Positions 10,846-29,270 of a DNA stretch of 64,000 nucleotides are shown piece by piece. Every line of letters begins with the position of its first letter. Within the stretch, counting starts at the first letter, position 1. A model generated the notes under the pieces. It was not told the origin of the DNA and did no database searches. It saw nothing but the letters and a program-made list of their open reading frames with translations. Position numbers and translations under genes: made by a program. The stretch is from Deferrisoma camini S3R1 (GTDB taxonomy: Bacteria; Desulfobacterota; Deferrisomatia; Deferrisomatales; Deferrisomataceae), in contig NZ_JAFN01000001.1 in the NCBI RefSeq assembly GCF_000526155.1, positions 392,824-456,823 on the forward strand. Direction: 5' to 3'.

Positions 10846-11877
10846 CTAGAGGACCCTCCAGGGCTGGGGCATGAAGATCCGTTCGTACAGGAGCAGCGCG
10901 TAGCGGTCGGTCATGCCGGCGATGAAGTCGGCGGCCAGGTCCTCCACCTTCTCCCCGGGGATCGGCTGGGCCAGGTTCTCGAGAAACCAGTCCGGCCGGG
11001 CCACGAAGTGGCCGTAGAGCTCCTCCAGGATCTTCTTGGCCTTGATGAAGTCCTCGTGGACCTCGGGGTTGTCGTACACCCGCTCGTAGAGGAACTCCCT
11101 CAGCTCCAGGGCGGCCGCGTGGACCTCCTCGCCCATGGCGATGGTCTCCCAGTCCCGCCGCATGGTCTCGACAACCGTGTCCCGTACCATGGTGTCGATG
11201 CGCTGCCCATGGGTCTCCCCGAGGACCCGCGTCACCGCCGCCGGAATCTCGCTTCGCCCGATCACCCCCGCCCGCAGGGCGTCGTCCACGTCGTGGTTGA
11301 GGTAGGCGATCAGGTCGGCCACCCGCACGGCCTGGGCCTCGAGGCTCGCGCCGGAGGCCAGAATCTCGCCCCGGCCCTTGGAGTGGTGCAGGATCCCCTC
11401 ACGAACCTCGTGGGTAAGGTTGAGCCCCCGCCCGCCCCGCTCCAGCCGGTCCACCACCCGGAGGCTTTGCACCGCGTGATGGAACCCCCCGGGCCGCAGT
11501 TGCCGCAGTACCGTCTCCCCCGCGTGTCCGAACGGGGTGTGGCCCAGGTCGTGCCCGAGGGCGATCGCCTCCACCAGGCTCTCGTTGAGCCGCAGGGCCC
11601 GGGCGATGGTGCGGGCGATCTGGCTGACCTCCAGGGTATGGGTCAGTCGGGTCCGGTAGTGGTCCCCGGCCGGGGCCAGGAACACCTGGGTCTTGTGCTT
11701 GAGCCGGCGAAACGCCTTCGAGTGTAGGATCCGGTCCCGGTCGTGCTGGAAGCAGGTCCGCAGGTCGCAGGGATCCTCGGGCCGCACCCGCCCCCGCGAC
11801 CGTGCCGACCGCGCGGCCCGCGGATGGAGCTCCCGCTCCTCGGTCCGCTCGAGCATCTCTCTCACGCGAAGGTCCAA
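10846..11877 (-). CDS. dgt: dGTP triphosphohydrolase-like HD protein
   Basis: A 343-aa HD-superfamily enzyme, type 2 dGTPase-like, predicted to hydrolyse deoxynucleoside triphosphates to the nucleoside plus triphosphate. Signature segments: [47 protein letters not shown] (the HD metal ligands) and a C-terminal [12 protein letters not shown]. The chosen start is TTG 11877 because GGAGG lies six bases upstream on the minus strand; GTG 11865 and ATG 11856 are alternatives, and the family N-terminus (LxxREExEE then [13 protein letters not shown]) fits all three. A longer frame from 12036 enters non-conserved leader DNA and is rejected. Length fits the family. Confidence 0.92.
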
Positions 11878-12213
11878 CGTTTTCCTCCAAGGATGCGCAG
11901 AGTATCGCACCGGCCCTTTGAGGGCCAAGGGCCTTCTTCGGCCCCGGACCCCGAAAAATTTTTTGGAAGCCTCTAAAGGGATCTCTCCCATAGGACGATG
12001 AAAAAAATTGTCGTCCCGTGGGGCAAAGGCGGACAAGGAGATTTCACCATGCGTTCAGATCGTGACCCGAACCGGGACACGTGGACGATACGCGGTTCTG
12101 GGGTCGGTTCTCAGCCCCCCGCTCCCAGAGGGAACGGGGGGCTCGGTTTTTCTGTGAATGAGCATTCAGGTCCTCGTTCAGCCACTGCTAACCCACCCAC
12201 AAGGAGGTGCACC
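11878..12213. other. Divergent intergenic region (336 bp) with structured leader
   Basis: No gene I can support. It separates the minus-strand dGTPase-like gene from the first giant lipoprotein. It holds a palindromic A/T run (AAAAATTTTTT near 11954), an AAGGAG plus ATG at 12036-12049 whose frame runs into the lipoprotein, two hairpins (see 12064-12151) and the AAGGAGG ribosome binding site at 12201. No clear -35/-10 pair was found. Confidence 0.6.
12064..12151 (+). promoter_or_regulatory. Two-hairpin leader with terminator: candidate attenuator or riboswitch
   Basis: Hairpin 1: GACCCGAACC (12064-12073) pairs with GGTTC-TG-GGGTC (12094-12105), a 10-bp stem with a two-base bulge. Hairpin 2: AGCCCCCCG (12113-12121) pairs with CGGGGGGCT (12135-12143), with an inner TCCC/GGGA stem, then CGG and TTTTT (12147-12151), a terminator-like structure. 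The gene upstream is divergent, so there is no upstream plus-strand coding gene for this terminator to serve; it sits inside the leader of the lipoprotein gene. I found no match to the conserved bases of the cyclic-di-GMP class I riboswitch. Confidence 0.55.
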
Positions 12214-15200
12214 ATGAGAGAACGAGGGAGACATTCAGCGTGGATCGTCCTGCTGACGGTCTTGTTTTCGGCGGGGCTGTTCCTGTCCGCCTGTGGTGGC
12301 GGGGGGGGCGGCGGGGGCGGCGGCACGACCGTGGCCGACACCGGAGGGACCTCCGGTGGAGACTCGGGCGGCACGACCGGGGGCGACACCGGGAGCACCG
12401 CCGGCGACACAGGCGACACCGGAGGCTCTACAGGGGGAGATACGGACACGGGAGACCAGGGGACGACAAACCCCTACTCGGGGCTGGCCAAGCTGACCGG
12501 CGACGTGTCTCTGTCCGGTCTGAGCAGCGCCGATGCCAACAGCCTCAGCCGGGCGGCTGCGCGAGCCCGGGGAGGTCGGCGCGCAGCCCGGAGCCTGTAC
12601 GCCGCCCAAACGGATCTCACCACGGATGCCATCGTTAAGCTGTACGTGATGGACGAGAAGGGAGACCTCCAGGACACGGGCATCCAGGGGCAACTGGTAA
12701 CCGACCCGGAGACGGGCAAGGTCCAGTTCGAGTTCGACGGCGTGAAGGACGGCGTGGATTACATTGTCCGATACATGAAGGTCGTGGAGCGGACCGGTGA
12801 GAAGGCCCGGCTCCTGGAGATGAAGGCCCTGGCGAGCGTTCCCGAAGGGGTCACCGAGGCTCCTCCGGTGGAGGTCTCTCCGAAGGCGAGCGTGGTGACC
12901 GAGGCGCTCGTAGACGCGATCCTCCAGGCGACCGACGGCACCGGCATCGACAGTGAGATCATCGATCGGATCGTCACGGCCGTGAAAGACGCGATCGAGA
13001 CCATGGTGGAGCAGGGCGTGATCCAGATCCCGTCCATGGTCGTGGAGACCCCGCCCGAGGTGGCCGAGGTGGTCGAGCAGGCCGCCAACGGAGACGACAC
13101 CGGGCAGGAGCCGGTGGACACCTCCTCGCTGGACGAGGTGGAGAACGACAACATGGACGACGTCACCGGCGTGCTCCTGTCGGACGAGTCGGTGGACAAC
13201 GAGGTCTCGGCAGTGAAGACCGAGAAGAAGGCCGAGGAGTTCCAGCGCCTGGACACCTCCACCGAGGAGGGCAAGCGTGAGCTCATTCGCCGGGTGTTCG
13301 CGGAGCTGGTGGGCGACGACGACGTACCGGCGTTCATGGTCCAGTTCATGGCGGATCAGTACGTGGGCGGATGGAAGACGACCGTCCAGGACCTCCTGCC
13401 TGCCGTGATGAACGGCATCGAGTTCCGCGAGCAGGTCGACACCAGCGGGGTCACCGTGCCCTCCGTGCTCGAGCATTTCAGCACCAAAATGTCGGCCGTG
13501 TACGACCTGGTGGCCAAGCGGGAGGCCGGAACCGACCTGACCGAGGACGAGAAGAAGCAGCTCGCGGAGATCCCGCCGATCCTGCTGGGGCTGTTTCCGC
13601 CCGAGGAGAGCTCGGTCTGGACCGACCTCCAAAAGGACACGGAGCTCCAGATGCCCCAGGGGATCGCGTTCACGGTCTACCTGGTGGACGAGTTCCTGCC
13701 CGAGGTGCTGAACCTCGAGGCCACCTTCAGCGCCGAGGCGGACGAGAACGGGGTGGTCACGGCTGAGCGCGAGGACCCGTTCGACTTCAACCCCATGGCT
13801 CCCGGCTCCATCATGGAGCTGATGGGTTTCTTCTCGGAGGATCCGGAGAACCCGGGCCAGCAGATGTGGCAGCGCTACGATGTCGGGTACGACATCCACG
13901 AGATGTGGCTCTACCCGGGCCGCATGTGGGTGGATGACACCGGCCCCAACGGCGAGCCGATGGGATACGAGATCGACATCCTGAATGCGGGCACTTGTGT
14001 GAGCAACCTCTCGTACATGATCGAGATGATGCAGTCCGGCGGGCCCGCCGGCCCCGAGCCCGCAGGGCCTGGCGAGGACCTTCCCTCGATGGACGTGACC
14101 GTGATGCTCACCTACCCCAAAAGCGACGGAACCACCGGCCAGATCGAGCTGCTTCCGGAGCCCTGGGGAGACCCGTGGGGCCAGTGCTTCCGGCTGGATC
14201 CGTGGGCGGAGATGGACTTCCAGGCCCAGCCGGATCCGAACAATCCCCCGGAGCCAGACCCGGAGAGGATTGTGTCGGACTTCGCGTCGGGTGAGTACGT
14301 CGTAACGGTGGTGGACAACGCCACAGGCCAGGAGTACACGAAGATCTTCGATCGGAAGGTCATCACGGGGATGACGGACGCGTATCCTCGCATCACCACG
14401 CCTCTGGGGATGCCTCCGCCGCTTCCGGCTAACGCGAGCCCGGAGGAGATGGAGGAGAACAACCAGCTCTGGCAGGAGTACAACCAGCAGGGCGCCACCC
14501 GATTCGCGGCCAACGTGGACACCGACGGGGACGGCACGGACGACGCGGCCCGGATCACCGTGAAGTGGGAGGCCCCGGACGTGGACCTGCCCGAGGGCGT
14601 GAAGATCGGCTACCACCTCAACGTGGGCCGGAGCGCTTGCGCCACAGCCGTGGACGCGGACGACGACGGCTTTAGCAACTACGAAGAGATGCAGCTGGGA
14701 ACCGATCCGTGGAACCCGGAGAGCACGCCGGCCGAGCACCTGGCGGACAGCGACGGCGATGGGGTGGCCGACAGCATCGAGCAGGTGGCAGGGACCGACC
14801 CCGACGACGAGACGAGCTCGCCCGGCGAGGACTTCTGCCCCTGGTGGGACTGGGATCCGATCTACAGCACGTGGGACCGAAACAAGATCCTGTTCACCCG
14901 TGCCTTTACGATCCCCTATGACTTCCCGAAGCAGGACGTGACAGACCTGGATGCGTACCAGCTCGACGTGGCGGTGGTGTTCATCGATGCAGAGACGGGT
15001 AAAGAGCTGGGCCAAGGCGGCAATGCCCATGCAGAGTTCTTCGTGGCCGATCCCATCGACACGAACGCCGAGTTCGCGATCGAGGGTACGGTGAGCGTGC
15101 CCGACGACGGGTACCCGTACCGTGTGGCTTTGCTCAAGGAGGTCAACGAGTACAACCCGGACGCCTTGTTCGAGTGGGACAAGTGGAAGTACTCCCGGGA

Positions 15201-17049
15201 GGTGCTGGCATCGGCGACCGTGAGCCCGACGGACACCCAGTACACTCTCGTCGCCACCATCGGTGACCTCCTGAACCGGGAGGGAGACGCCTGGTTCAAC
15301 ATCGTCCTGTTCCGCGACGTCAACGACGATGGGGTGATCGGTGACCCCGACAGCGGCGACACCTGCTTTGACGACGGCGCCGGCAATATGGTGTGTGAGG
15401 ACCTGTGGTACCCCGCGCCCGGCAAAGAGGTCTGGTTCAACGCGTGGGGCGGTATGCTCACGGTGGAGTGGGACGAGTGTGGCGATCCTTCCGAGCCGTG
15501 CATGCACCAGTCCATGGTGATCACCGGAGCGCCCGACGACCCGAACGATCCCAACTCCTTGCAGACAGCTCCGGGCCCGGCCCTGGGCGTGGACTCGGAC
15601 TGGGACGGCCTATTTGACGGCGAAGAGGCCGAGATCGGGACGGATGAAACGTTGTGGGACACGGACAACGACGGCTGCTCGGACGGAGACGAGGTGAGGG
15701 AGGACTCCGATCCCCTAGACGCCTCGTCTGCCATGGACTGGTGCTCGTGGAACGCGGGAGCCATGCCTCCGCCCCCTGGTGAGGGTGAGTTCGTGGACGG
15801 CGCGGCCCTTTACGAGGTCAACTGCCAGCCCTGTCACCTGGGCATCGACAACACCACGGTGCAGGATCCGTCCCCAGAGGCCATTCGTGACGCTTTGAAC
15901 CAAGAGCAAAGCATGTACGAGCTGGGGTGGTTGACGGACGAGGACCTGCAGGCCATCTCCGCCGCGCTGAGCGGAGAGCCGATGGGCGAGCCCGGTGACA
16001 CGGACGGGGACGGCATTTTGGACGAGCAGGACAACTGCCCGATGGTGCCGAACCCGGACCAGGCCGACGTCGACATGGACGGCGTGGGCGACGCGTGCCA
16101 GGGTCAGCAGGGCACGGTTGGCGAGCCCGGCGACACGGACGGGGACGGCATTTTGGACGAGCAGGACAACTGCCCGATGGTGCCGAACCCGGACCAGGCT
16201 GACGTCGACATGGACGGTGTGGGCGATGCGTGCCAGGATCAGAGCACCGTTGGCGAGCCCGGCGACATGGACGGGGACGGCATTTTGGACGAGCAGGACA
16301 ACTGCCCGAACGCGTACAACCCCGGCCAGGAGGACATCGACCTGAACGGCGTGGGGGATGCCTGCGAGGCGCCGCCCGAGTCCGGAACACCGGGCACCCT
16401 GGACGGCGCGGCCCTATACGACAGCAACTGCGCCAGCTGCCACGGGGCGTTGGATCAGACGACCATCACGGACGCCAACCCGTTGGCTTTGGAGTTTGCC
16501 ATCGCCAATAACATGGGCGGCATGGGTACCCTGGCCGATTTGACGGAAGACTACTTTGCCGCCATCCTCGACGTGATCGACGGCGACCACGACGGGCTCC
16601 CGAACCGGGTGGAGACCGTGGACACCGGCACGGCGTTCGACGACCCCGATACCGACAGCGACGGCGTTGGTGATGGTCTGGAGGTGGGGTTGGGCTTCGA
16701 CCCGACGGACGCGGCCAGCCCCGGGGCCGCCCCGCCGTCCTCGGAGTCCGACCTGGTGGGCACTTGGGAAAACCTCGATCCGAGCGGGACCATCGTGTTC
16801 GAGACCGCCGTCTTCAACAGCGACAACACGTACCAGGTGAGCGGTACGGACCCGTCCGACGGTTCCACGTGGTCCGAGACGGGCACCTGGAGCCTGTCCA
16901 CCGATGGCACCACATTGACCACGGTGGTCAGCACCTCCACGGATCCGAGCTCCACGGCCGGGGAGACCGAGACGTTCTCCGTGGTCCTCCTCCCCGACGG
17001 GAGGGTGGTGTTGGACCTGTGGATGTTGTGGACTCCGGCGGGGCCGTAA
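12214..17049 (+). CDS. Giant surface lipoprotein with TSP3-type repeats and two cytochrome c-like motifs
   Basis: A 1611-aa secreted lipoprotein. The lipobox LSAC places the lipidated Cys at residue 27, followed by a poly-Gly and Gly/Thr/Asp tether (28-90). Helical and beta regions follow without recognised family. Calcium-type DxDxDG repeats occur at about 812-873, 1126-1172 and 1459-1507. Three near-identical thrombospondin type 3-like units ([13 protein letters not shown] then DGVGDAC) lie at about 1258-1386. Two CxxCH haem-attachment motifs flank them: CQPCH at 1204 and CASCH at 1406, each starting a mini cytochrome c-like segment (DGAALY, about 50 aa, distal Met). The last 99 residues are a beta-rich module ending VVLDLWMLW, shared with the 2969-aa lipoprotein. 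Start ATG 12214 has AAGGAGG. Function unknown; extracellular electron transfer or adhesion are guesses. Confidence 0.85.
15988..16370 (+). repeat. Three tandem coding repeats (135/132-bp period)
   Basis: Units begin at 15988, 16123 and 16255, each opening GAGCCCGG then GACGGGGACGGCATTTTG. Copies one and two differ at only a few bases; copy three diverges in its second half. Each encodes one TSP3-like calcium-binding unit. The near-identity at DNA level suggests recent duplication and possible length variation between strains. Confidence 0.9.
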
Positions 17050-17067
17050 GAGGACCCGCCCAAATCG

Positions 17068-17099
17068 ACCGGGGAGGCCTGCGGGCCTCCCCGGTTTTT
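17068..17099 (+). terminator. Rho-independent terminator after giant lipoprotein 1
   Basis: ACCGGGGAGGCC (17068-17079) pairs perfectly with GGCCTCCCCGGT (17084-17095) around a four-base loop, followed by TTTT. It ends only 17 bases before the metalloprotease start, so that gene is either transcribed by read-through or from a promoter inside the upstream coding region. The same stem core recurs at 27863. Confidence 0.88.
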
Positions 17100-17116
17100 C
17101 GCGAGGATAAGGGGAA

Positions 17117-18631
17117 ATGACGCAAAAGCGGTGGCGGTCTCTGATCGTTGGGATGTGTCTGGTGCTTCCGGCCGTCGTCCCTGCGGCCTCCTGGGGAGGC
17201 CGCTGCGCAACGGGGCTGAGGGGTGACAGACCGGGGCGTTTCGAGGCCGCCCGGCCGCTTCCCCGCCGTTCGGCCTTTCGGGGGGTGGCGCCGGTCCCCA
17301 CGAGGAACGCCACGGCCTTCGTCACAGAACACTTTCGGCTTCTGTGGGGCAACGAGTACGACCGGTCCGACCCGGACTGGGCCGACGCCGACGGCAACGG
17401 TCGGCCCGACTGGGTGGACGAGACGGCCACGGCTTTGGAGACTGCCTATGACGAGATGATCGCGCTGGGGTTCCCGTCACCCTACGGCGCCGACACCTAC
17501 TTCCTGGACGTGTACTTCGTCGACACGGGTCTGGAGGTGTGCAGCAGAGAAAACTATGACCCCGATTCCACCCCGTCGGATAAGGTGTGCATGACCGAGC
17601 TCGGTCCCGGTGCCTGGGTGGAGGTGTCGTTTGGGAAGGACGACTCCTCGTACTACGCCTACACCGAGATCGACAACGACTACGGCGTGGCGTACTTCGT
17701 GTTCAACGACGACTTCTCCCTGCACGCCGACGACGAGCGATCGGTCCTCCGGGCCACGGCCGCCCACGAGCTGTTCCACGCGGTGCAGCGCTCTCTCGGC
17801 TATCCCTGGGATGACGAAGTAGCCGTTCCGGATTCGCGCTGGCGAGACGAAGGATGGTGGTTCGAGGCTACGGCCACCTGGATGGAGGAGGTGGTAACCC
17901 CCGAGGTGGACGACTACGTGACCTACGTCCGCGAGTTCCTGGCGCACCCGGAGGACCCCTTGAACAGCCAAGACGGCCTGCACGAGTACGGCGCCGCCAT
18001 CTTCCCGGGGTTTTTGTGGCTGCGATACGACGGCCCGGATTTTTGGATCGAGGTGTTCTCGCGGGCTTATGACGAAGGGCTGGAAGTCGTCCTGGACGAT
18101 GCCCTTCTGGCGCGGGCCGGGGTTCCTTTGGGGGATGCCATAGCCACGTTCTGGACTCTTGCGGCCCACCCGGAGGATTTCTGGCCGGACGGAGAACGGT
18201 TTCGGGCCCCGGCGGTTCCAAGCCTGGCGCGGACCGCCTCGACCCTTCCCCTTACCTATGCCTCGTCCTCGTCTTCTGCTCCGGGGCGGTACGGCGCGAA
18301 CCTGTTCCGAGCCGAGTCGGCCCCCTCGGGGCTGGAAGTGTCCTTTTCTTCCCCCAATCCGGTCACGGCACGACTGGCGTTCTCCCGGGGGGGCGGGGCC
18401 TTCCGTCAGGTCGTCGAGGTGTCGGAAGGGGACACGCGGGTGGATATTCCGGGGTCCGGGCCTTTGTACGTGGCCGTGATGAACGAGGACTCCTCAGACT
18501 TGGAGTATTCCTTGGGTATAGTGCCCCAGACCTCGTCTTCGGCGTCGCAGCCCTCCTCAGACACCACGCCGGAGGCTGCGTCTGCCGGGGCGTCGGGAGG
18601 GTGTTTCTTGACGGTTCTGTCGCACCCATGA
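17117..18631 (+). CDS. Secreted zinc metalloprotease (MXAN_6640-like)
   Basis: A 504-aa exported protein with an N-terminal signal peptide (hydrophobic core LIVGMCLVLPAVVPAA). The catalytic HExxH is HELFHAVQ at 217-221, with a downstream Glu in WWFEATATWMEE near 250, the spacing of gluzincin-like peptidases. The region before it contains a DADGNGRPDWVDE acidic loop and DxDVYFVD strand typical of MXAN_6640-type putative metalloproteases. A Ser/Thr-rich linker near residues 470-495 ends in GASGGCFLTVLSHP: a Gly-Gly-Cys tail reminiscent of short Cys-containing C-terminal sorting signals, though no hydrophobic segment plus basic end follows. It sits between two giant lipoproteins and may process them; that is inference. 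Confidence 0.85.
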   Translation: MTQKRWRSLIVGMCLVLPAVVPAASWGGRCATGLRGDRPGRFEAARPLPRRSAFRGVAPVPTRNATAFVTEHFRLLWGNEYDRSDPDWADADGNGRPDWVDETATALETAYDEMIALGFPSPYGADTYFLDVYFVDTGLEVCSRENYDPDSTPSDKVCMTELGPGAWVEVSFGKDDSSYYAYTEIDNDYGVAYFVFNDDFSLHADDERSVLRATAAHELFHAVQRSLGYPWDDEVAVPDSRWRDEGWWFEATATWMEEVVTPEVDDYVTYVREFLAHPEDPLNSQDGLHEYGAAIFPGFLWLRYDGPDFWIEVFSRAYDEGLEVVLDDALLARAGVPLGDAIATFWTLAAHPEDFWPDGERFRAPAVPSLARTASTLPLTYASSSSSAPGRYGANLFRAESAPSGLEVSFSSPNPVTARLAFSRGGGAFRQVVEVSEGDTRVDIPGSGPLYVAVMNEDSSDLEYSLGIVPQTSSSASQPSSDTTPEAASAGASGGCFLTVLSHP

Positions 18632-18712: not shown

Positions 18713-18857
18713 TTGACAAACCCCGTATCATTTCTCTAGTCTCATGCCCCGGAGCCGCTACGTTGGATTCGTTGGCGGAGGGGAGGAATGGGGTGTGGCT
18801 GGGTGGGGTCCATAGTGAAAAGCGGATGCCTGGTCGGGAAACCGGCCAGGCATTTTT
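18713..18857 (+). promoter_or_regulatory. Leader of giant lipoprotein 2: promoter candidate, hairpin and GNRA-loop terminator
   Basis: A perfect TTGACA at 18713-18718 has a poor -10 (TAGTCT, 18737-18742, spacer 18). A hairpin follows (CCCC 18747-18750 with GGGG 18780-18783, enclosing CCGC/GCGG). Then ATGCCTGGTCGG (18826-18837) pairs with CCGGCCAGGCAT (18842-18853), one G-T pair, GAAA tetraloop, followed by TTTTT: a strong intrinsic terminator 45 bases before the ATG at 18903. It may end the metalloprotease transcript, or act as an attenuator if the TTGACA promoter is real. Confidence 0.55.
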
Positions 18858-18902
18858 ATTGATTCTAAGATAGCAAAAAACATTCTATCAAAGGAGGGGA
18901 TC

Positions 18903-21900
18903 ATGAGCGGGCGAGCGACGAGGATGGGGGTGCGTTGGCTTGTTGCCGTGGCGGCGGCCGTGGGGCTGACCGGTATCGTCTCGTGTGGAGGAGGCGGTGG
19001 AGGAGGCGGCGCGGGCGAGTCACAGACCGTCTCCTTCGAGGTCTCCGGCCAGGCGTTCGACGGGCCGCTGGCCGGCGCGACGGTGGTGGTGCGGAAGCCC
19101 GACGGGACGGAGTTGGCTACCGCCACCACGGGGCAGGACGGCACCTACTCGATCGAGGTGAAGGGTTATGAAGGGCCGTTCCTCGTGGAGGTTTCCGGTG
19201 GAACGGATTTGGGTCCGGACGGGACGGGCGGTACAGCCGACGACACCGCGAACACCGCCAGGTTCGAGGACATCGGCTATGGAACCAACGGAGCCACGGT
19301 GCTCGTGGCGCCCAACCCGGTGTTCACCATGGCCCGGGGATTCCTGGCGAACGGACTTGCCGGCGCCGGTCGAGACGCCGTCGCCCAGGCCCGTCAGCAG
19401 GCGGCCCAGGTGTGCGGGCTCGAAGCCGGTGACCTCCGGTCCTTCCCGTCGGAAGAGGTGGCGCGCCGTCGCATCCGTGCCCTGGCCTCTCTCGCAAAGA
19501 TGGCAAGAACGCGGGGCAAATCGGAATCGGTCCCGAGCTTCTTGCAGGAGCTGGCTGCCAAAGCGGGGAACCTCTCGTTGTTCTCCGAAAACTCGGCCGA
19601 GTGGTCGGAAACGTTTCGCTCCCAGGTTCTGGGCGCGGTCGGACTCTCCGAGACGCTGGCGCAGCAGGCCGCGAACGCGGAGGCCCGCCAGGCTTCCCGG
19701 GAAACGGGCATGCTCGTGTCAGGGGCGGTGAGGAGCCTGGCGACCGGCGCGGGAGTGGCTGGCGCCACGGTGACCGTGGAAGGGCTCGGGGTCAGCACCG
19801 TTACGGACGGCAACGGCGCCTTCGCCCTTTCCGTGCCTGTGGACGAGGGAGGCGAGCAGATCAAACTCACGGTGCGTGCAAACGGTTACGCGGAGAACCA
19901 GAAGGTGTTCTCGGCGGTGTCGGACGGCGGGGCCAACCTCGTGGTGGTGTTGAAGCCGGTCACGGTGATGACCGGGGTGAGTCTGTCGGGGCTGACGGCG
20001 GGTCGTCGTGGCGCGCGCATGGCCGGCGACTCGCTGGTGCTCGAGTCTCCGGACGGCTCGGTGCGGGTGAACATCCCGTTCCGCTCGCTTCGTCGCAGCA
20101 TGGCCCGGCATCTAGCGAGTCGTGGGCTCGGAGACCAGGCGGCGGAGTTCACCGCCGAGGTTACCTATGGAGACCCACTCCGGGAGAAGGAGATCTTCCC
20201 GGGCTCGTTCCGGGCGAAGGACTCCGAGGCCCGCGCCCGGTTGGCGGCCCGGGCGCCGCGAAGCGCGTTCCAGGGAGCGGAGGACGAGGTGAGCCTGGAG
20301 TCCGTGGCGTTCGTGAACATCCGCCTCAAGGACGAGCAGGGAAACGAGATTCCCGAACTGGACGAGCCCATGACCGTGCGCCTGCGCATTCCGGACGGCC
20401 TCCAGGCTCGGTACCTCGACCTCTACAACCGCGGTCAGACCGTGATCCCGTGGTACTCCTATGACGAGGAGCAGGGGATCTGGGTGCGCGAGGGTGAGGC
20501 GACGCTGGTGAAAGTGGCGGAGCAGGGCCAAGAGGTTATGTACGCCCAGGCCCAGGCCGAGCACTTCTCATGGTGGAACGTGGACTGGCCCATCATCACC
20601 CATGCGTGCATCGACGGTACGGTGCAAGACGCCGACGGAAACGTGCTGGCAGGCGCGTGGATCACGGCCGAAGGCGTGAACTACCAGGGCGCGAGCGACG
20701 CGATCACCGACGCCGAGGGGAACTTTCTCGTCCGGGTGCGCCGTGACGCGATCGTCCGGGTGTTCGTGACCGAGCAGGAGAATACAGCGGTGGAGGTGGA
20801 CACGGGCGCGGGCACCCAGGACAGCTGCGGTGAAGGCGTGCCCCTGTACCACGCGGGCATTCTGACTTTGCAGCGGGCACGGATCACGGGCCGGGTCGTG
20901 TGGGCCGGCAGCGACCCAGCCGAGCCGATCCAGTACGTGACCGTGCGGGCGTCCAGCGGGGCGGCGGCCGTGACCGGAAGCGACGGGACGTTCGAGGTTC
21001 CGGCCCCATCCGGTGAGGACGTCACGCTGGTGTTCGAGTACTGGGACCCGGATGCCTGGCAGTCGGTGCGCGCCACCCGAACCGTGGAAGGTGCCAACGG
21101 CGAAGTCGACTTGGGCGACGTGGCCCTGGAGCAGCCCACCGAGTGGGTCACCCTCGAGGGCACGGCCTACGTCCGTACCGGTGCCGGTACGGACGACGAG
21201 ACCACCGAGCCCGCCCGCTGGGCCTACCTCAACGTGGCCGGGTACGAGACCTGGACCGACGGAAACGGGCGGTACTCGGTGATGGTGCCCAGAGCACAGG
21301 ACGGCGTCTATGAGGTCTCCGGATGGGTGCGCTGGAGGTTCGATTTGACCACCCAGACCCAGGTCACGAAAGACGAGCCGGATGTGTACTTCGATGTCCA
21401 TCAGGTCACCTTGCTCGGCACAGTGCTCGTGGACGACGGCGCGGGCCCCGAACCGGCGGCGGGTGCAGAGGTCTGGACCGACACGGGGGCGTACACGACC
21501 ACCGATGAGAACGGCGGGTACGAGGTCCAGGTGGTCGCCGGGGTGGCGGCAGAGGTGACGGTGGCCTACTACGACGGCGTGTCCGGCCAGTGGATCCAGG
21601 ACAGCCAGGAGGTTGTGCCGGGCACCGAGGACACCCAGGAGGGCCCCTCCTTCGTGCTGCAGGTGGTGCGACCCGTGCGTGTCACGGGCCGGGTAACCTT
21701 TGGAGCGGGGTGCCCGGCGGCATGGGCCGGTCTTCTGACCTACGAGCAGGGGTGGACGAGCACCGACGGGGAGGGCCGGTACGAGGTGTACCTGCCCGCG
21801 GAGACGGATCAGAAGATCTTCGTGGTGTACGGTGACGACGAGGTGTGGACGGAAACCCTGAACCTGTTCGGCCGAACCGGCACGGTCGCGCACGACATCC

Positions 21901-24900
21901 AGATCGAGGGCGTGCAGGTCCCGCCCTCTGTGGAGGTGCAGGAGTACGCCGCGTCCGTGGTGGCCGGGGGAACGTGGCGAGCGACGCTCGTGGTACGCCG
22001 GTGCGGAACCGATCCGTTCACCTACCGGATGTCGGCCGATGGCGTGTTGGAGAGTCCCGCGACAGGCGATCTCGTTTTCACCGACGGAGAGGCCACGGTC
22101 GACCTGGAGATCGCCGTGCCCGAGTCGGCCGCCTCCGGCTGGCACGAGTTTCGTTTCGAGGTGCTCGACGCGGATGACAATGCGGTGGCGCAGAACTCGT
22201 TCTGGGTGCAGATCCGGGCAGCCGACGTGAACGAACCGCCTAGGGTCGAGGAGCTCATGGTGGCACCGTCCACGGTCATGCGGGGCCAGGAGGTCGAGGC
22301 GTGGGTCTATGCCTGGGACCCGGACTGGGACGGGTTGACGTTTGCGTGGACCTTGGAGCGCCGGAACCAGGACGGCGAGTTCGAATCGGTCGATGTGGAG
22401 CTGGGGGGTGACGCGTACGTTTCGGTCGACACCGGCGGACGGGAAGCCGGCGTGTATCGGCTCACCGTGGCGGTCTCGGACGGCGCGCAGACGGTGAGCC
22501 GGTCGGCCGAGTTCGAGGTGGTCGAGCCCACCCCGGTCGTCTGGTCCGTGGTGGCGGACCGAAGTCAGGCTACGGAAGGCGATGAGGTGTGCTTCGTGGC
22601 CTACGGGCGGAACCTGAGCTCCGTCTCGTGGACGGTCAATGCCGGCGATGTCGTAGAAGACGGCAATCAGTACTGCCACACGGTAACCTCCGGCGAGGTG
22701 GAAGCCGGCGAGCTCGTGGTGGAGGCGACCGCAGGAGGCTCGAGCGCGAGCGCCCGGATCTCTCTGTACCGGGATGCCGACGGAGACGGGCTGTCGGCCG
22801 CCAGGGAGTCGGAACTGGGAACCAGCGATACCGACCCCGACTCGGACGACGACGGCCTAACCGACAGCGCCGAGGTGGAGCGGGGCACCAACCCGCTGGC
22901 TGCCGACTCGGACGGTGATGGACTGTCGGACGGTACCGAAGTGGCCCAGGGCACCGATCCCCTGAACGACGACACAGATTACGACGGCATCAAGGACGGG
23001 GAGGACGAGTACCCCCGTACGCCCATGTCGTCCTCGTTCGGCGAGGCCAAGGCCTATCTCGAGGCCGGTGACGTGGCCGCGGCCCACGCGGTGCTCGCCC
23101 AGATGGACGAGGGAGGCACCCTTACCGACCCGGCGCGGGTTCTCTATGCCCTGACCACCGTCATGACGGTGGCCGAGGAGGCAAAGGACTCGGCCTCGCC
23201 GTTCTACGCCCTGCTCGATGCGCTGGGTCTCCAGGTGGTGGGGGACACGCTGCAAACCTATGACTTCTTGGACATGGGAGCAGGCTTGGGCGGCGCTTCG
23301 GGCATGGGACGGTCGGCACGCCTGGCTGCGGCGACAACCGCGGAGCAGTACCGGGCGGCGGCCGAGGAAGCGCTCGACAGGGTCGTGGCGGCTGGGGCCC
23401 TTCTGGACGCCGTGACCGGCCCGGTTTCTTTCACCGTCACGATCGAGGGGGCCGAGTACGAGGTGGACGACGCGGACGTGGAGTTGCTGGGCGCGGCTCT
23501 GGACTGGTGCGAGTTCCTGCTGCAGTTCGCGCTGGCCTACGACTATACGCACGACGAGACCCGGGGGCCGGTGTTCTCGTTGCTGAACCTCCAAGACCTG
23601 GTGTTGCGGAGCGATGCGGCCGACCGAATGGCTGCGGCCAAGCAGGCGTTCGTGGATGCGATCGACGGGCTGGAAGCGGCCCACGACGCCATGGCGGCGG
23701 AGACCGACGACCAGTCCGACGATCTCCTGACCCTCGTTCCCGAACTGGAGGGGTACTGGCCGTATCTCACCCAGACGCTGGATGCCCTGGTGGCCTCGGC
23801 CGAAGCGGCCGGGTTCACCCCGGTGCCGTTCTGGCAGCCCGGTGAGGAGGAGTTCACCAGTTTCAGGGACGACCCCGACACAGGGGAGACGATCGGAACG
23901 GCCCGGATCCCGCTGTATCTCCAGTACTTGAGCATCGACCTCTCCGCCCTTTTCGACGAGCCGTTCGACGGGGCCGGGTTGGCCGACGACGTGGCCGCCG
24001 GTCTGGTCAGCGTGACCTTCACGCCGTGGACCGGCTGGGACGGCAGCGTGTACTACGACCAAGACACCCGCATCGACGGAGATTCCTATCTCGCCGGCTT
24101 CATTGCCTCCGTGGTGGAGGACGTGGAGTTCCCGGGTGGCGGAGTGGAAGCCTACCTCTGGGCGGGCCCGAGCGGGCCGCGGCTGACGGACTCGTGGGAG
24201 GGCGGCCCGGCGACGGCGCTCGAACTTGTCGAGATGGGGCGGCCTGACCTCGTCACCCGCGCGGGCTACACGGCGGAACGGGTGGTTCTGCGCCCGGTGG
24301 CGAAGCTCGAGGGGGCGGCCATCTCGGTGGACGGGGACGACAGCGACTGGACCGGCGTCGTAGCTACGCCGCTCGGGGCGTTCGGTGAGGTGGCCCAGGT
24401 CGAAGCGAGCGACGGCATCTATCTGCTGATTCGGTCCCCGTACCTTTACGCCGGGTCGTGGGTGTCGCTGTCGTTCGGTCGGGCCGGCACCGCGGGGGTG
24501 GACAGATGGGTCTGGGGCATCGAGGTGTGGTCTGGCGGCGCCTACGTGTGGGGCCTCCCCGAAGAGGGCGTGGAGTCCGCCGTTGGCGATGGGGTAGTCG
24601 AGCTCTTCATCCCCTCGTGTGCCCTTGCCCTTGCGGCAGGCGACGGTCGCGTTTTTGTCCACGAAGCCTCCGCATGGGGCGAGCAGTGGGACGCCTCGGA
24701 CGTAACCGGGTGGCCACCCGAGTGGATCCTCGGGTACTCCCTGGCCGTGCCCCCGTGCAGCGCGGCGGGTGCCGACACGGACGGCGACGGGTTGACCGAC
24801 GACCAGGAGTCCTGGATCGGTTCCGACCCGAACGCCGCCGATACGGACGGCGACGGCCTTTCGGACTACGACGAGGTGATGACGTACGGGACGAGCCCAA

Positions 24901-27812
24901 GCAGCGTCGATTCGGACTGGGACGGGTACAGCGACAACGAAGAGGTGGCCGCGGGGGCGGATCCCAACGACTGGGAGAGCACGCCGGAGAACACGGGGCT
25001 TCGGTTCGGGTTCACCTATCTGCAGTACCGGAACCACGAGGATCCGTCGGACACGTATTCCCCGGACATGTTTCGGGCCTGGGCGGATCTGAGGCTGGAC
25101 GGCTCTCCCGTGTCCGAGTCGGACATCGCCGAGGTCGAGGTGCTCGACTCGGCCGACAACCCGGTCACGATGAACCCCTGGCAGTTCTGGGGCGACAGCG
25201 GGCACAGCTACTACAGCAGCGGGGGTGGGTGGAGGCTCTCCGACCCTTGGATCAACACCGGTGTGTACTTCAGCCTGCCGGATCTCCCCAGGGGAACCTA
25301 CACTCTTCGGGTGACGACGACCGACGGCCGAGTGGGTACCTACACGATCAACTTCCCTGGGCAAGTCGTTCTCCCCTATGTGCGGGATGTGGGCTATGAG
25401 TGGACCTCAAGGGGCCTCCGCGTCACCTGGACGAATCCGACGGCAGACCCCAACTGGGGCCAGGTGGACCGGATCATGGTGGTTCTCCTGGACCCCGACT
25501 GGGGGGACGTGCTGTACATCCCGGTGGACCCGACGCAGGAATCGTTCCTGATCCCGGCCAACGTGCTCGAGACCGTGGCCGAGTACGAGCAATTCCCGGC
25601 GCTCAAGCTGCAGATCCAGACCCGGGCCTATGACGAAGACAACGGCAACTTGAACTACGCCCGGGGCTACGCCAAGGCGGTCGACATCCCCTGGGCCTGG
25701 AACGATCCGATCGTGAGCTGGGCGTACATGCAGTACCGCAACTATCCGGACGATGCGAAGGACGGGGTGCGGGCCTGGATCGAGTTCGAAAAGGCCGGTG
25801 ATCCGCTGGGCCCGGAGGATTTTCGTTCGCTTCAGGTCGAGCAACCGTCGGGTAGTCCGGTTCCGGGGGGCGCCTGGGGCGATGCGGGCTTGGATGCGGG
25901 GGATTACTTGTGGCTCTCCTGCAGCGGAGGCGAGTGTTACTGGGATGGGACTCTGCGCACGTACGCCGGCTTCTTCTGGACGCTGGGCTCATCGCTCGAG
26001 GGGGGGCTCGATTACACCTTCACAGGTCAGTACGCAGGTGGCGGTTCGCTCGACTACTCGTTGAACTATCCCGGGGACGTCGTTCTTCCTCTGGTGACAA
26101 ACCTTTCGTCCGAGCGGCAGGCCGACGGCGGGGTCCTTCTGACCTGGTCCAACCCGGTGTCGGAGCCCAACTGGGGCGAGGTGGACCAGTTGCGGATCGT
26201 GGTGCTGGACATGGCGAACCCCGATGACCCGGCCGACATCGTTTACGCATGGGTTCCGCCGGACCAGGAGTACGCCGTGCTCCCCCCCGAGGTGGTGACC
26301 CAGATCCAGGCGATGGGAACGGGGCCGTTCCAGTGGATCGTGCAGACCCGGGCGTACGACGACGATGGGCACAACTACGCCCGCGGCTACTCGGAGCAGG
26401 CCGACCTGAACCTCACGTACACCGAGGGTTCCGTGCCCACCGACACCGACGGCGACGGACTGTCGGACTACGAGGAGATCACGGAGTGGTGGACGGTGCC
26501 GACCAATCCCGACTCGGACGGGGACGGACTCACGGATGGGGACGAGGTGAACGTGTACGGCACCCAACCGACGGTGGCGGATACCGACGGAGACGGGGTG
26601 ACGGACGGCGAGGAGGTCAACGCGGGCACGGACCCGATGGCCTGGGGCGAACGCCCGAGTCAGCGCCTGTCATCGGACTTCGCTTACGTGCAGTACCGCA
26701 ACTACGAGGACTCGTCCCGGAACGGGTTCCGTGCGTGGATCTCGCTGATGGACGGCGGGGTGTTCCCCCAGACGGGGGAGTCGATCTCGTACGCCCGATT
26801 GGAGGACTCCTCGGGCGCGTTCGTTAGCGACGCCTGCCAGTTCGTGGGTGCGGACTACGTGGTGTTCGACCCAACCGAGCAAACGACGGATGAGGGGCGT
26901 TGGGCCGGTTGCTGGTTCGACCTCACGGGGATGGACTTGGTCCCGGGAAGCTACCGGTTCAAGGTTACCGACCCCGATGGCGGAACGCTGGTGAGGGAGA
27001 CCACCATGCCGGAGGTCCGGTCGATGAACTTTGTGTCTTCCGCCAGCATGACCTACGAGTGGCAGCCCGACGGCAGTTTGACGCTGTCCTGGACGGAGCC
27101 GGAGGCTCCCAACTACGACGAGTTGCGCTTGGTGTTCCGCCGACCCGCTCCGTCGTGGGTGGACTTCTTCTACGTGCTTCATCTGGAAGGCACAAATTCG
27201 GTGACGATACCTGCGGATGTTGTGGAACTCCTGGATTCCTACTCCCCGGTTTCGGAAGGTTGGCTTTGGGAGATGCAGGGCCGAGCCTGGACGGACGACG
27301 GGGACAACTACGCGAGGAGTTACAGTAACCCCGTGATGATCACGACGGAAGATCAGGACGGAGACGGGATCAGCGACGACGAGGAGATGAGTCTCGGCAC
27401 AGACCCTGTCAATCCGGACACGGACGGGGATAAGGTGGGGGACGGCTTGGAGTTGACCCTGGGAACGGATCCTCTCGACGACACCGACCCGGGTGGGTGG
27501 ATTCCCACCGAGAACACGGAATTGGTGGGGATCTGGGAGCTTAGGGACGAGTTCGGAACGCTCAAGGTGAGCGTCGAGTTCAACCAGGATGGATCTTTCG
27601 TCATCGACCACGAAGAGTATGGCCCCTCAGAGGCGTGGTACCACGAGGAGGGCTCGTGGAGTCTTGCGGCGGAGGGCATCGAGATGACCTGGTCAAGCTC
27701 GACCGATCCCGACATCTCCGCGGGATCTTCCAGAATCCTTCCGGCAGTCCTTCTCCCCGACGGAAGACTGGTATTGGATTTGTGGATTCTTTTGTCTCCT
27801 TCGTCTCCTTGA
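18903..27812 (+). CDS. Giant surface lipoprotein (2969 aa) with carboxypeptidase-regulatory-like and calcium-binding repeats
   Basis: Lipobox IVSC gives the lipidated Cys at residue 28, then a poly-Gly tether. Residues about 40-1050 hold several carboxypeptidase regulatory-like beta domains (VSGQAFDGPLAGATV; IDGTVQDADGNVLAGA; VTGRVTFGAG). A PKD-like segment is near 1110-1210. DxDGDG calcium-type repeats occur at about 1289-1371, 1956-2025, 2510-2580 and 2816-2862. A largely helical block spans 1375-1650. Three related modules of about 225 aa, each opening with QYRN and FRAW/VRAW, lie at about 2036-2259, 2273-2502 and 2593-2810. The last 100 residues repeat the C-terminal module of the 1611-aa lipoprotein (LLPDGRLVLDLWIL). 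Start ATG 18903 has AAGGAGGGG. Likely an outer-surface adhesin or matrix protein; no enzymatic domain seen. Confidence 0.88.
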   Translation: MSGRATRMGVRWLVAVAAAVGLTGIVSCGGGGGGGGAGESQTVSFEVSGQAFDGPLAGATVVVRKPDGTELATATTGQDGTYSIEVKGYEGPFLVEVSGGTDLGPDGTGGTADDTANTARFEDIGYGTNGATVLVAPNPVFTMARGFLANGLAGAGRDAVAQARQQAAQVCGLEAGDLRSFPSEEVARRRIRALASLAKMARTRGKSESVPSFLQELAAKAGNLSLFSENSAEWSETFRSQVLGAVGLSETLAQQAANAEARQASRETGMLVSGAVRSLATGAGVAGATVTVEGLGVSTVTDGNGAFALSVPVDEGGEQIKLTVRANGYAENQKVFSAVSDGGANLVVVLKPVTVMTGVSLSGLTAGRRGARMAGDSLVLESPDGSVRVNIPFRSLRRSMARHLASRGLGDQAAEFTAEVTYGDPLREKEIFPGSFRAKDSEARARLAARAPRSAFQGAEDEVSLESVAFVNIRLKDEQGNEIPELDEPMTVRLRIPDGLQARYLDLYNRGQTVIPWYSYDEEQGIWVREGEATLVKVAEQGQEVMYAQAQAEHFSWWNVDWPIITHACIDGTVQDADGNVLAGAWITAEGVNYQGASDAITDAEGNFLVRVRRDAIVRVFVTEQENTAVEVDTGAGTQDSCGEGVPLYHAGILTLQRARITGRVVWAGSDPAEPIQYVTVRASSGAAAVTGSDGTFEVPAPSGEDVTLVFEYWDPDAWQSVRATRTVEGANGEVDLGDVALEQPTEWVTLEGTAYVRTGAGTDDETTEPARWAYLNVAGYETWTDGNGRYSVMVPRAQDGVYEVSGWVRWRFDLTTQTQVTKDEPDVYFDVHQVTLLGTVLVDDGAGPEPAAGAEVWTDTGAYTTTDENGGYEVQVVAGVAAEVTVAYYDGVSGQWIQDSQEVVPGTEDTQEGPSFVLQVVRPVRVTGRVTFGAGCPAAWAGLLTYEQGWTSTDGEGRYEVYLPAETDQKIFVVYGDDEVWTETLNLFGRTGTVAHDIQIEGVQVPPSVEVQEYAASVVAGGTWRATLVVRRCGTDPFTYRMSADGVLESPATGDLVFTDGEATVDLEIAVPESAASGWHEFRFEVLDADDNAVAQNSFWVQIRAADVNEPPRVEELMVAPSTVMRGQEVEAWVYAWDPDWDGLTFAWTLERRNQDGEFESVDVELGGDAYVSVDTGGREAGVYRLTVAVSDGAQTVSRSAEFEVVEPTPVVWSVVADRSQATEGDEVCFVAYGRNLSSVSWTVNAGDVVEDGNQYCHTVTSGEVEAGELVVEATAGGSSASARISLYRDADGDGLSAARESELGTSDTDPDSDDDGLTDSAEVERGTNPLAADSDGDGLSDGTEVAQGTDPLNDDTDYDGIKDGEDEYPRTPMSSSFGEAKAYLEAGDVAAAHAVLAQMDEGGTLTDPARVLYALTTVMTVAEEAKDSASPFYALLDALGLQVVGDTLQTYDFLDMGAGLGGASGMGRSARLAAATTAEQYRAAAEEALDRVVAAGALLDAVTGPVSFTVTIEGAEYEVDDADVELLGAALDWCEFLLQFALAYDYTHDETRGPVFSLLNLQDLVLRSDAADRMAAAKQAFVDAIDGLEAAHDAMAAETDDQSDDLLTLVPELEGYWPYLTQTLDALVASAEAAGFTPVPFWQPGEEEFTSFRDDPDTGETIGTARIPLYLQYLSIDLSALFDEPFDGAGLADDVAAGLVSVTFTPWTGWDGSVYYDQDTRIDGDSYLAGFIASVVEDVEFPGGGVEAYLWAGPSGPRLTDSWEGGPATALELVEMGRPDLVTRAGYTAERVVLRPVAKLEGAAISVDGDDSDWTGVVATPLGAFGEVAQVEASDGIYLLIRSPYLYAGSWVSLSFGRAGTAGVDRWVWGIEVWSGGAYVWGLPEEGVESAVGDGVVELFIPSCALALAAGDGRVFVHEASAWGEQWDASDVTGWPPEWILGYSLAVPPCSAAGADTDGDGLTDDQESWIGSDPNAADTDGDGLSDYDEVMTYGTSPSSVDSDWDGYSDNEEVAAGADPNDWESTPENTGLRFGFTYLQYRNHEDPSDTYSPDMFRAWADLRLDGSPVSESDIAEVEVLDSADNPVTMNPWQFWGDSGHSYYSSGGGWRLSDPWINTGVYFSLPDLPRGTYTLRVTTTDGRVGTYTINFPGQVVLPYVRDVGYEWTSRGLRVTWTNPTADPNWGQVDRIMVVLLDPDWGDVLYIPVDPTQESFLIPANVLETVAEYEQFPALKLQIQTRAYDEDNGNLNYARGYAKAVDIPWAWNDPIVSWAYMQYRNYPDDAKDGVRAWIEFEKAGDPLGPEDFRSLQVEQPSGSPVPGGAWGDAGLDAGDYLWLSCSGGECYWDGTLRTYAGFFWTLGSSLEGGLDYTFTGQYAGGGSLDYSLNYPGDVVLPLVTNLSSERQADGGVLLTWSNPVSEPNWGEVDQLRIVVLDMANPDDPADIVYAWVPPDQEYAVLPPEVVTQIQAMGTGPFQWIVQTRAYDDDGHNYARGYSEQADLNLTYTEGSVPTDTDGDGLSDYEEITEWWTVPTNPDSDGDGLTDGDEVNVYGTQPTVADTDGDGVTDGEEVNAGTDPMAWGERPSQRLSSDFAYVQYRNYEDSSRNGFRAWISLMDGGVFPQTGESISYARLEDSSGAFVSDACQFVGADYVVFDPTEQTTDEGRWAGCWFDLTGMDLVPGSYRFKVTDPDGGTLVRETTMPEVRSMNFVSSASMTYEWQPDGSLTLSWTEPEAPNYDELRLVFRRPAPSWVDFFYVLHLEGTNSVTIPADVVELLDSYSPVSEGWLWEMQGRAWTDDGDNYARSYSNPVMITTEDQDGDGISDDEEMSLGTDPVNPDTDGDKVGDGLELTLGTDPLDDTDPGGWIPTENTELVGIWELRDEFGTLKVSVEFNQDGSFVIDHEEYGPSEAWYHEEGSWSLAAEGIEMTWSSSTDPDISAGSSRILPAVLLPDGRLVLDLWILLSPSSP
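27792..27809. repeat. Two 9-base repeats forming the 3' end of the giant lipoprotein gene
   Basis: TTGTCTCCT and TCGTCTCCT in direct succession encode the final residues and abut the TGA stop. The paralogous C-terminus in the 1611-aa protein ends without this repeat. Confidence 0.6.
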
Positions 27813-28602: not shown

Positions 28603-28637
28603 AAACCTTCTCCGCCCAGGCGAGAAGGTTTTTTTTT
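28603..28637 (+). terminator. Strong terminator upstream of pyrR (possible attenuator)
   Basis: AAACCTTCTC (28603-28612) pairs with GAGAAGGTTT (28622-28631), continuing into a run of T to 28637. It ends the upstream transcript; its position about 70 bases before pyrR also permits PyrR-type attenuation, although I do not see a clear PyrR binding loop. Confidence 0.85.
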
Positions 28638-28665
28638 GAGTTCGGGCGAGGCCGGTCCCCCCTCC

Positions 28666-28689
28666 AGCTTCCTAGCCTTCCAGCCTTCT
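28666..28689. repeat. Octamer array, three units, before pyrR
   Basis: AGCTTCCT, AGCCTTCC, AGCCTTCT in 8-base register, ending 17 bases before the pyrR ATG. Its units are the reverse complement of those at 36017. Confidence 0.85.
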
Positions 28690-28706
28690 AGCCAAAGGGT
28701 CCTCCC

Positions 28707-29270
28707 ATGGCCGAGACCTACCGCAGGGTGCTCCTGAACGCTGATGCCGTGCGCCGGAGCCTGGCGCGCATGGCTCTGGAGATCCTTGAGCGCAACCGGG
28801 GCACCCAGGGCCTGGCCCTGGTGGGGATCGTGCGCCGGGGCGACCGGCTGGCCCGCCGGATCGCCGATCACATCCGCAAGGCCGAGGGGGTCGAGGTGCC
28901 GGTGGGCCGGCTCGACATCACCCTGTACCGGGACGACCTGGGCCGCAAGGGGGCCCCGCCGCCCCTGGGGCCCACGGACATCCCGTTCTCCCTGGACGAC
29001 CGGGTGGTGGTGCTGGTGGACGACGTGCTCTACACCGGCCGCACGGTGCGGGCCGCGTTGGACGCCCTGGTGGACCTGGGCCGGCCCCGGGCCATCCAGC
29101 TCGCCGTGCTGGTGGACCGGGGACACCGGGAGTTGCCGATCCAGCCCGACTACGTGGGCCATGCCGAGCCCACCCGGCCGGAGGAGGAGATCGAGGTCCG
29201 GGTGGGCGACGACCCGTCCGACGACGCCGTGTTCCTGGTGGAACCGGGCTGGGACGAAGGGGAGGTCTGA
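28707..29270 (+). CDS. pyrR: Bifunctional pyr operon regulator / uracil phosphoribosyltransferase
   Basis: A 187-aa phosphoribosyltransferase-fold protein. The PRPP-binding motif [17 protein letters not shown] lies near residues 101-117, preceded by the basic [10 protein letters not shown] loop and [10 protein letters not shown], both PyrR hallmarks. In Gram-positives PyrR binds pyr mRNA in response to UMP and causes transcription termination; here the terminator and leader upstream are compatible with that but a binding loop is not evident. First gene of a tight cluster: pyrB starts 4 bases after its stop. Length is standard. Start ATG 28707 lies just downstream of an octamer array; no strong ribosome binding site is visible. 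Confidence 0.95.

Follow-up and report, generated by a model that had tools for sequence, protein, structure and literature searches.

The question raised by this locus is what an intrinsic transcription terminator is doing directly ahead of the start codon of a giant lipoprotein gene (ATG 12214), whose 1611-residue product carries a signal peptide with a lipobox. The terminator sits in the divergent gap between this gene and a dgt-like gene, within the 64,000-nucleotide stretch of Deferrisoma camini S3R1 DNA that was analysed as a whole and is referred to here as the window (Table 1). The best reading, to which we assign a probability of about 0.62, is that the terminator lies in the lipoprotein gene's own 5′ leader and would act there as an attenuator, a brake on the production of an expensive surface protein; an insulator is the main rival, and a riboswitch is disfavoured. 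Relatives were compared through two genomes of the same genus, G001 and G002, that contain both the lipoprotein orthologue and its upstream region, and through a more distant orthologue in G003. At its other end, the giant gene's own terminator (17067-17117 region) finishes only ~17 nt before the ATG of the next gene at 17117, which may depend on read-through of that terminator.

Table 1. Features of the divergent gap and of the comparable region before the second giant lipoprotein gene (window positions).
Feature	Position	Strand	Remarks
dgt-like HD phosphohydrolase gene, divergent	10846..11877	-	Start near 11877
Probable sigma-28-like promoter, TAAAG-N15-GACGATG	11974..12000	+	Boxes 12/12 identical in G001; expected transcription start near 12006-12010
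Leader ahead of the terminator, including hairpin 1 (12067-12107)	12008..12109	+	Not conserved: 80/102 against G002, 42/102 against G001
Shine-Dalgarno sequence AAGGAG of the upstream reading frame	12035..12040	+	Shine-Dalgarno sequence in all three genomes
Possible upstream reading frame across the terminator	12049..12213	+	Continues into the lipoprotein frame in this genome and in G002; ends in G001 at a TGA directly behind the T-run
Intrinsic terminator: hairpin 12110-12146 and T-run TTTTT 12147-12151	12110..12151	+	-27.6 kcal/mol; also present in both congeners
Inverted repeat TGAATGAGCATTCA, possible operator	12155..12168		One of three genome sites within one mismatch
Possible stem formed around the ribosome-binding site by CCTCGTTC 12172-12179 and GAACGAGG 12220-12227 (codons 3-5)	12172..12227	+	Pairs per genome (three genomes): 8/8/6
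Giant lipoprotein gene, 1611 aa, TSP3 repeats, cytochrome c-type haem motif	12214..17049	+	Orthologues in congeners
Comparable arrangement ahead of the second giant lipoprotein gene (18903-27812): promoter TTGACA-N18-TAGTCT 18713-18742, leader, terminator 18825-18854 and T-run	18713..18858	+	G002 conservation

The original prediction described a bulged hairpin and then a terminator-like hairpin with a T-run, 62 bases ahead of the start codon, and both folding and a custom terminator scan confirmed this arrangement, with 62 bases lying between the end of the T-run at 12151 and the ATG. Hairpin 1 is bulged, with 15 interrupted pairs and a stability of about -21 kcal/mol, and the hairpin that follows is compact, G+C-rich and has its T-run immediately 3′, the features that define an intrinsic (Rho-independent) terminator. 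When the segment 12040-12160 was folded against shuffled sequences, a z of -2.43 was obtained and 3 of 200 shuffles folded equally well. The standard terminator scan omitted 12110-12151, which the custom scan ranked among the strongest intergenic terminators. As had also been claimed, the structure cannot terminate the upstream dgt-like gene, because that gene lies on the minus strand; the minus-strand face of the hairpin has no T-run.

The position of the promoter determines which transcript the terminator belongs to. The boxes of the sigma-28-like element are kept base for base and with identical spacing in three genomes, and in G001 their complete identity contrasts with a spacer of equal length that matches at only 5 of 15 positions (Fisher P = 0.0004). 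Compared with the sigma-28 consensus, TAAAGTTT-N11-GCCGATAA, which is that of E. coli (PMC2859248), the element at 11974-12000 agrees at 5/8 and 6/8 positions and has a spacer of N12, one base longer. FliA is encoded in the genome, another box with N15 spacing precedes the gene adjoining fliA, and canonical sigma-28 spacing is found before a CheY-like gene and a chemotaxis receptor-like gene. At the latter (genome 2559089-2559285), the canonical sigma-28 promoter is followed directly by a strong terminator and then by the gene. No sigma-70-like site scored well anywhere on the plus strand of the gap, and between the terminator and ATG 12214 the best site reached 1.3 bits, a score that 98% of shuffles equal or exceed; the scoring weights were E. 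coli-like frequencies, which recover the TTGACA-type promoters of trpS, of the Moco-riboswitch gene and of lipoprotein gene 2 at 12.2-13.3 bits. The conserved element is therewith likely to be the lipoprotein gene's promoter and, if it is taken as such, the terminator falls inside the gene's own leader, which is its most likely location.

The alternative placement is that of an insulator, in which the terminator would stop stray transcription from the dgt side and the gene's promoter would lie in the conserved 60 nt past it, perhaps controlled at the TGAATGAGCATTCA repeat. The stretch 3′ of the terminator (12152-12201) is indeed well conserved, at 48/50 positions in G002, the leader ahead of the terminator is unconstrained, and the repeat resembles sites adjoining other genes, since the other two near copies in the genome, TGAATGAACATTCA, each adjoin the start of another gene. 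Even so, this explanation is unlikely: it has no recognisable promoter past the terminator to draw on and leaves the conservation of the upstream box without a reason. The inverted repeat also resembles TetR-type operators.

Comparison with the congeners separates the terminator from the RNA that precedes it. The terminator is identical at 39/42 positions in G002 and 26/42 in G001, where the diverged sequence still forms a hairpin of -22.4 kcal/mol followed by a T-run, about equally far from the ATG; the stretch 11961-12007 is likewise identical at 43/47 positions in G002. Conservation is lowest between the probable promoter and the terminator, where 32-48% of positions match G001. Over 12008-12109, identity to G002 is 78% against 75% at third codon positions, which is about neutral, and identity to G001 is 41% against 82% at the third codon positions of a lipoprotein gene that is 91% identical overall; the 100 nt preceding the terminator therefore evolve at the neutral rate or faster in these two comparisons. 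Hairpin 1 is not conserved (47/61 positions in G002 and 29/61 in G001). The terminator is thus maintained while the RNA ahead of it drifts. A search for the same fold upstream of homologous lipoproteins, as the original prediction had proposed, accordingly bore out the terminator in G001 and G002 and failed for hairpin 1, and the G003 orthologue is preceded only by a 5-bp hairpin of -8.9 kcal/mol; the leader terminator is not general among genes of the same kind in other genomes.

This pattern, of a drifting leader before a kept terminator, argues against an aptamer and against treating hairpin 1 as such. A metabolite riboswitch of a new class, with hairpin 1 as part of the aptamer and the terminator as expression platform, might be suspected from two stacked hairpins and a T-run near a start codon, and is nonetheless extremely improbable: aptamer-side sequence and fold differ between congeners, no conserved aptamer fold was found upstream of the terminator, and the three lipoprotein leaders described below have no common sequence recognisable by eye. 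The observation that no known riboswitch class is recognisable agrees with the Rfam search, which gave no match at the gathering score in the 64-kb window or at related loci and only chance-level matches at E up to 10. A further rival is an independent trans-acting small RNA (about 12008-12151) that ends at the terminator, the lipoprotein gene then being reached only by incidental read-through. A promoter-like box and a terminator do bracket ~140 nt, and UpsM, before the dcw cluster of R. sphaeroides, provides a precedent (PMC5089854), yet the body of such an RNA is nearly unconserved even within the genus and no further copy of the leader was found in the genome, so we regard this possibility as very unlikely. 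The original prediction had left open an attenuator, a riboswitch platform and the end of a small leader RNA. The first of these, an attenuator-type leader terminator, is favoured because the sole promoter-like element is upstream and conserved and because similarly placed terminators mark recognisable attenuators; the riboswitch is not supported, and a small leader RNA remains compatible because premature termination would release an RNA of ~140 nt.

The similarly placed terminators come from a survey of 1.26 Mb of the genome, comprising 928 genes from a simple custom gene caller with approximate starts, in which a strong terminator within 130 nt of a start and unexplained by a nearby same-strand gene was flagged. 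Few genes have a compact terminator this near the start without an explaining upstream gene, and those that do include recognisable attenuators before trpS, a DAHP synthase-like gene and a permease-like gene with a Moco riboswitch. The trpS leader (genome 1233185-1233515) encodes a Trp-rich peptide (WWWRW) ahead of a terminator, a classical attenuator; the DAHP synthase-like gene (genome 2549840-2550170) has a Phe/Tyr/Trp-rich leader peptide and a terminator upstream; and the Moco/tungsten riboswitch (Rfam RF01055, 61 bits), with its terminator, precedes an ABC permease-like gene (L096 17225-17327, minus strand). Within the window, a terminator also stands 76 nt ahead of the start of a pyrR/phosphoribosyltransferase-like gene (28603-28707) and may be either a pyr attenuator or the preceding gene's terminator.

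Also flagged were three lipoprotein genes of 1537-2969 aa: the gene at 12214, the second giant gene of the window and one at 2.674 Mb. Together they make up three of the five lipoprotein genes with a Gly-rich lipobox in the 1.26-Mb sample (P = 2e-4, a post hoc value to be treated with care). The second giant gene (2969 aa) has a sigma-70-like promoter, a leader of ~85 nt and a strong terminator ~45 nt ahead of its ATG, promoter and terminator both being conserved in G002. The third (1537 aa, with Laminin_G/PKD domains; L082, near 2674332, minus strand) lies downstream of a selD-like gene and has a terminator of -38.7 kcal/mol 55 nt ahead of its ATG. No promoter was found after the terminator of the third gene, and the second has only a weak sigma-70-like site there (10.2 bits, P = 0.30), which also counts against the insulator.

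How an attenuator of this kind could be released is suggested by a feature absent from the earlier account, an ATG at 12049 with a Shine-Dalgarno sequence that is in frame with the lipoprotein gene. A frame of this type, starting at leader position ~41-48, runs through the terminator in three genomes, though shuffled leaders contain one by chance in 9-17% of cases. There is no protein-level constraint on it (13 nonsynonymous versus 4 synonymous codons) and it would fuse to the lipoprotein in two genomes. The possibility that the lipoprotein itself begins at ATG 12049, with a longer N-terminus, was rejected: in G001 the frame is interrupted by a stop codon, and the differences fall evenly across the codon positions. 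A trp-type leader peptide was likewise rejected, the sole Shine-Dalgarno frame crossing the terminator and having no codon bias, as was a conserved pairing of an antiterminator with the 5′ arm of the terminator, which is possible by eye here and in G002 (CGTGGGGC, ~12019) and absent in G001. No frame crosses the terminator of the third lipoprotein gene, so this is no general rule.

The terminator and its upkeep in three genomes are read directly from the sequence, as are the conserved box upstream and the lack of a recognisable promoter downstream or of a conserved aptamer; we infer that termination is partial or conditional. In the attenuator model, RNA polymerase would start near 12008 at the sigma-28-like promoter and much transcription would end at ~12151, giving an RNA of ~140 nt, with only read-through polymerases yielding the 4.8-kb mRNA. 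Translating ribosomes would cover the hairpin, and read-through could therefore depend on coupling of translation to transcription: a ribosome on the frame from 12049, close behind the polymerase, would keep the terminator hairpin from forming. This ribosome-coupled step is the likeliest release route, though taken by itself it is rather doubtful, and it is uncommon for an attenuator that carries its own sensor to have a nearly unconstrained leader ahead of its terminator. The stem around the ribosome-binding site, which encloses the Shine-Dalgarno sequence and the ATG, suggests a possible second, translational layer of control; the chance of at least 8 pairs is 1.5%, and no covariation was found in it across the three genomes.

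Control by a leader terminator is of an ordinary kind, and the site fits this broad known kind and not a described class. There is good documentation of premature termination in 5′ leaders, in some cases with a link to upstream frames (PMC7815308, PMC8297930). Trp-type leader-peptide attenuators, of which clear cases precede trpS and the DAHP synthase gene here, have the same order of promoter, leader with a translated frame, intrinsic terminator and gene, whereas the lipoprotein leader has neither a codon-biased peptide that stops before the terminator nor a conserved antiterminator pairing. In E. coli mdtUJI (PMC7815308), translation of an upstream frame decides read-through, as is proposed for the lipoprotein leader, but that system is Rho-dependent with a conserved uORF, in contrast to an intrinsic terminator crossed by a frame of unconserved sequence. 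UpsM shares an intrinsic terminator in a long 5′ leader and a possible small RNA product; its release by a leader terminator is documented by RNA data and it is found across the Rhodobacteraceae (PMC5089854), while the lipoprotein leader is unconserved in sequence. Processive antitermination by a specialised NusG of the RfaH/LoaP type similarly serves very long genes or operons and was rejected, since only one NusG-domain (PF02357) gene, and hence no specialised paralogue, was found in the genome.

Biosynthetic and resistance genes are familiar cases of control by leader terminators, giant exported lipoproteins much less so. It is conceivable, if quite unlikely, that in this lineage the genes for giant surface lipoproteins have a leader-terminator brake in common, with a leader sequence that turns over quickly and, as its sole need, a ribosome that follows the polymerase closely; a 5-9 kb gene would then be read only with sufficient translation capacity. 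Attenuation of three such genes in one genome, if it occurs, would point to a common regulation of cell-surface proteins that are costly to make, in a lineage that has been little studied.
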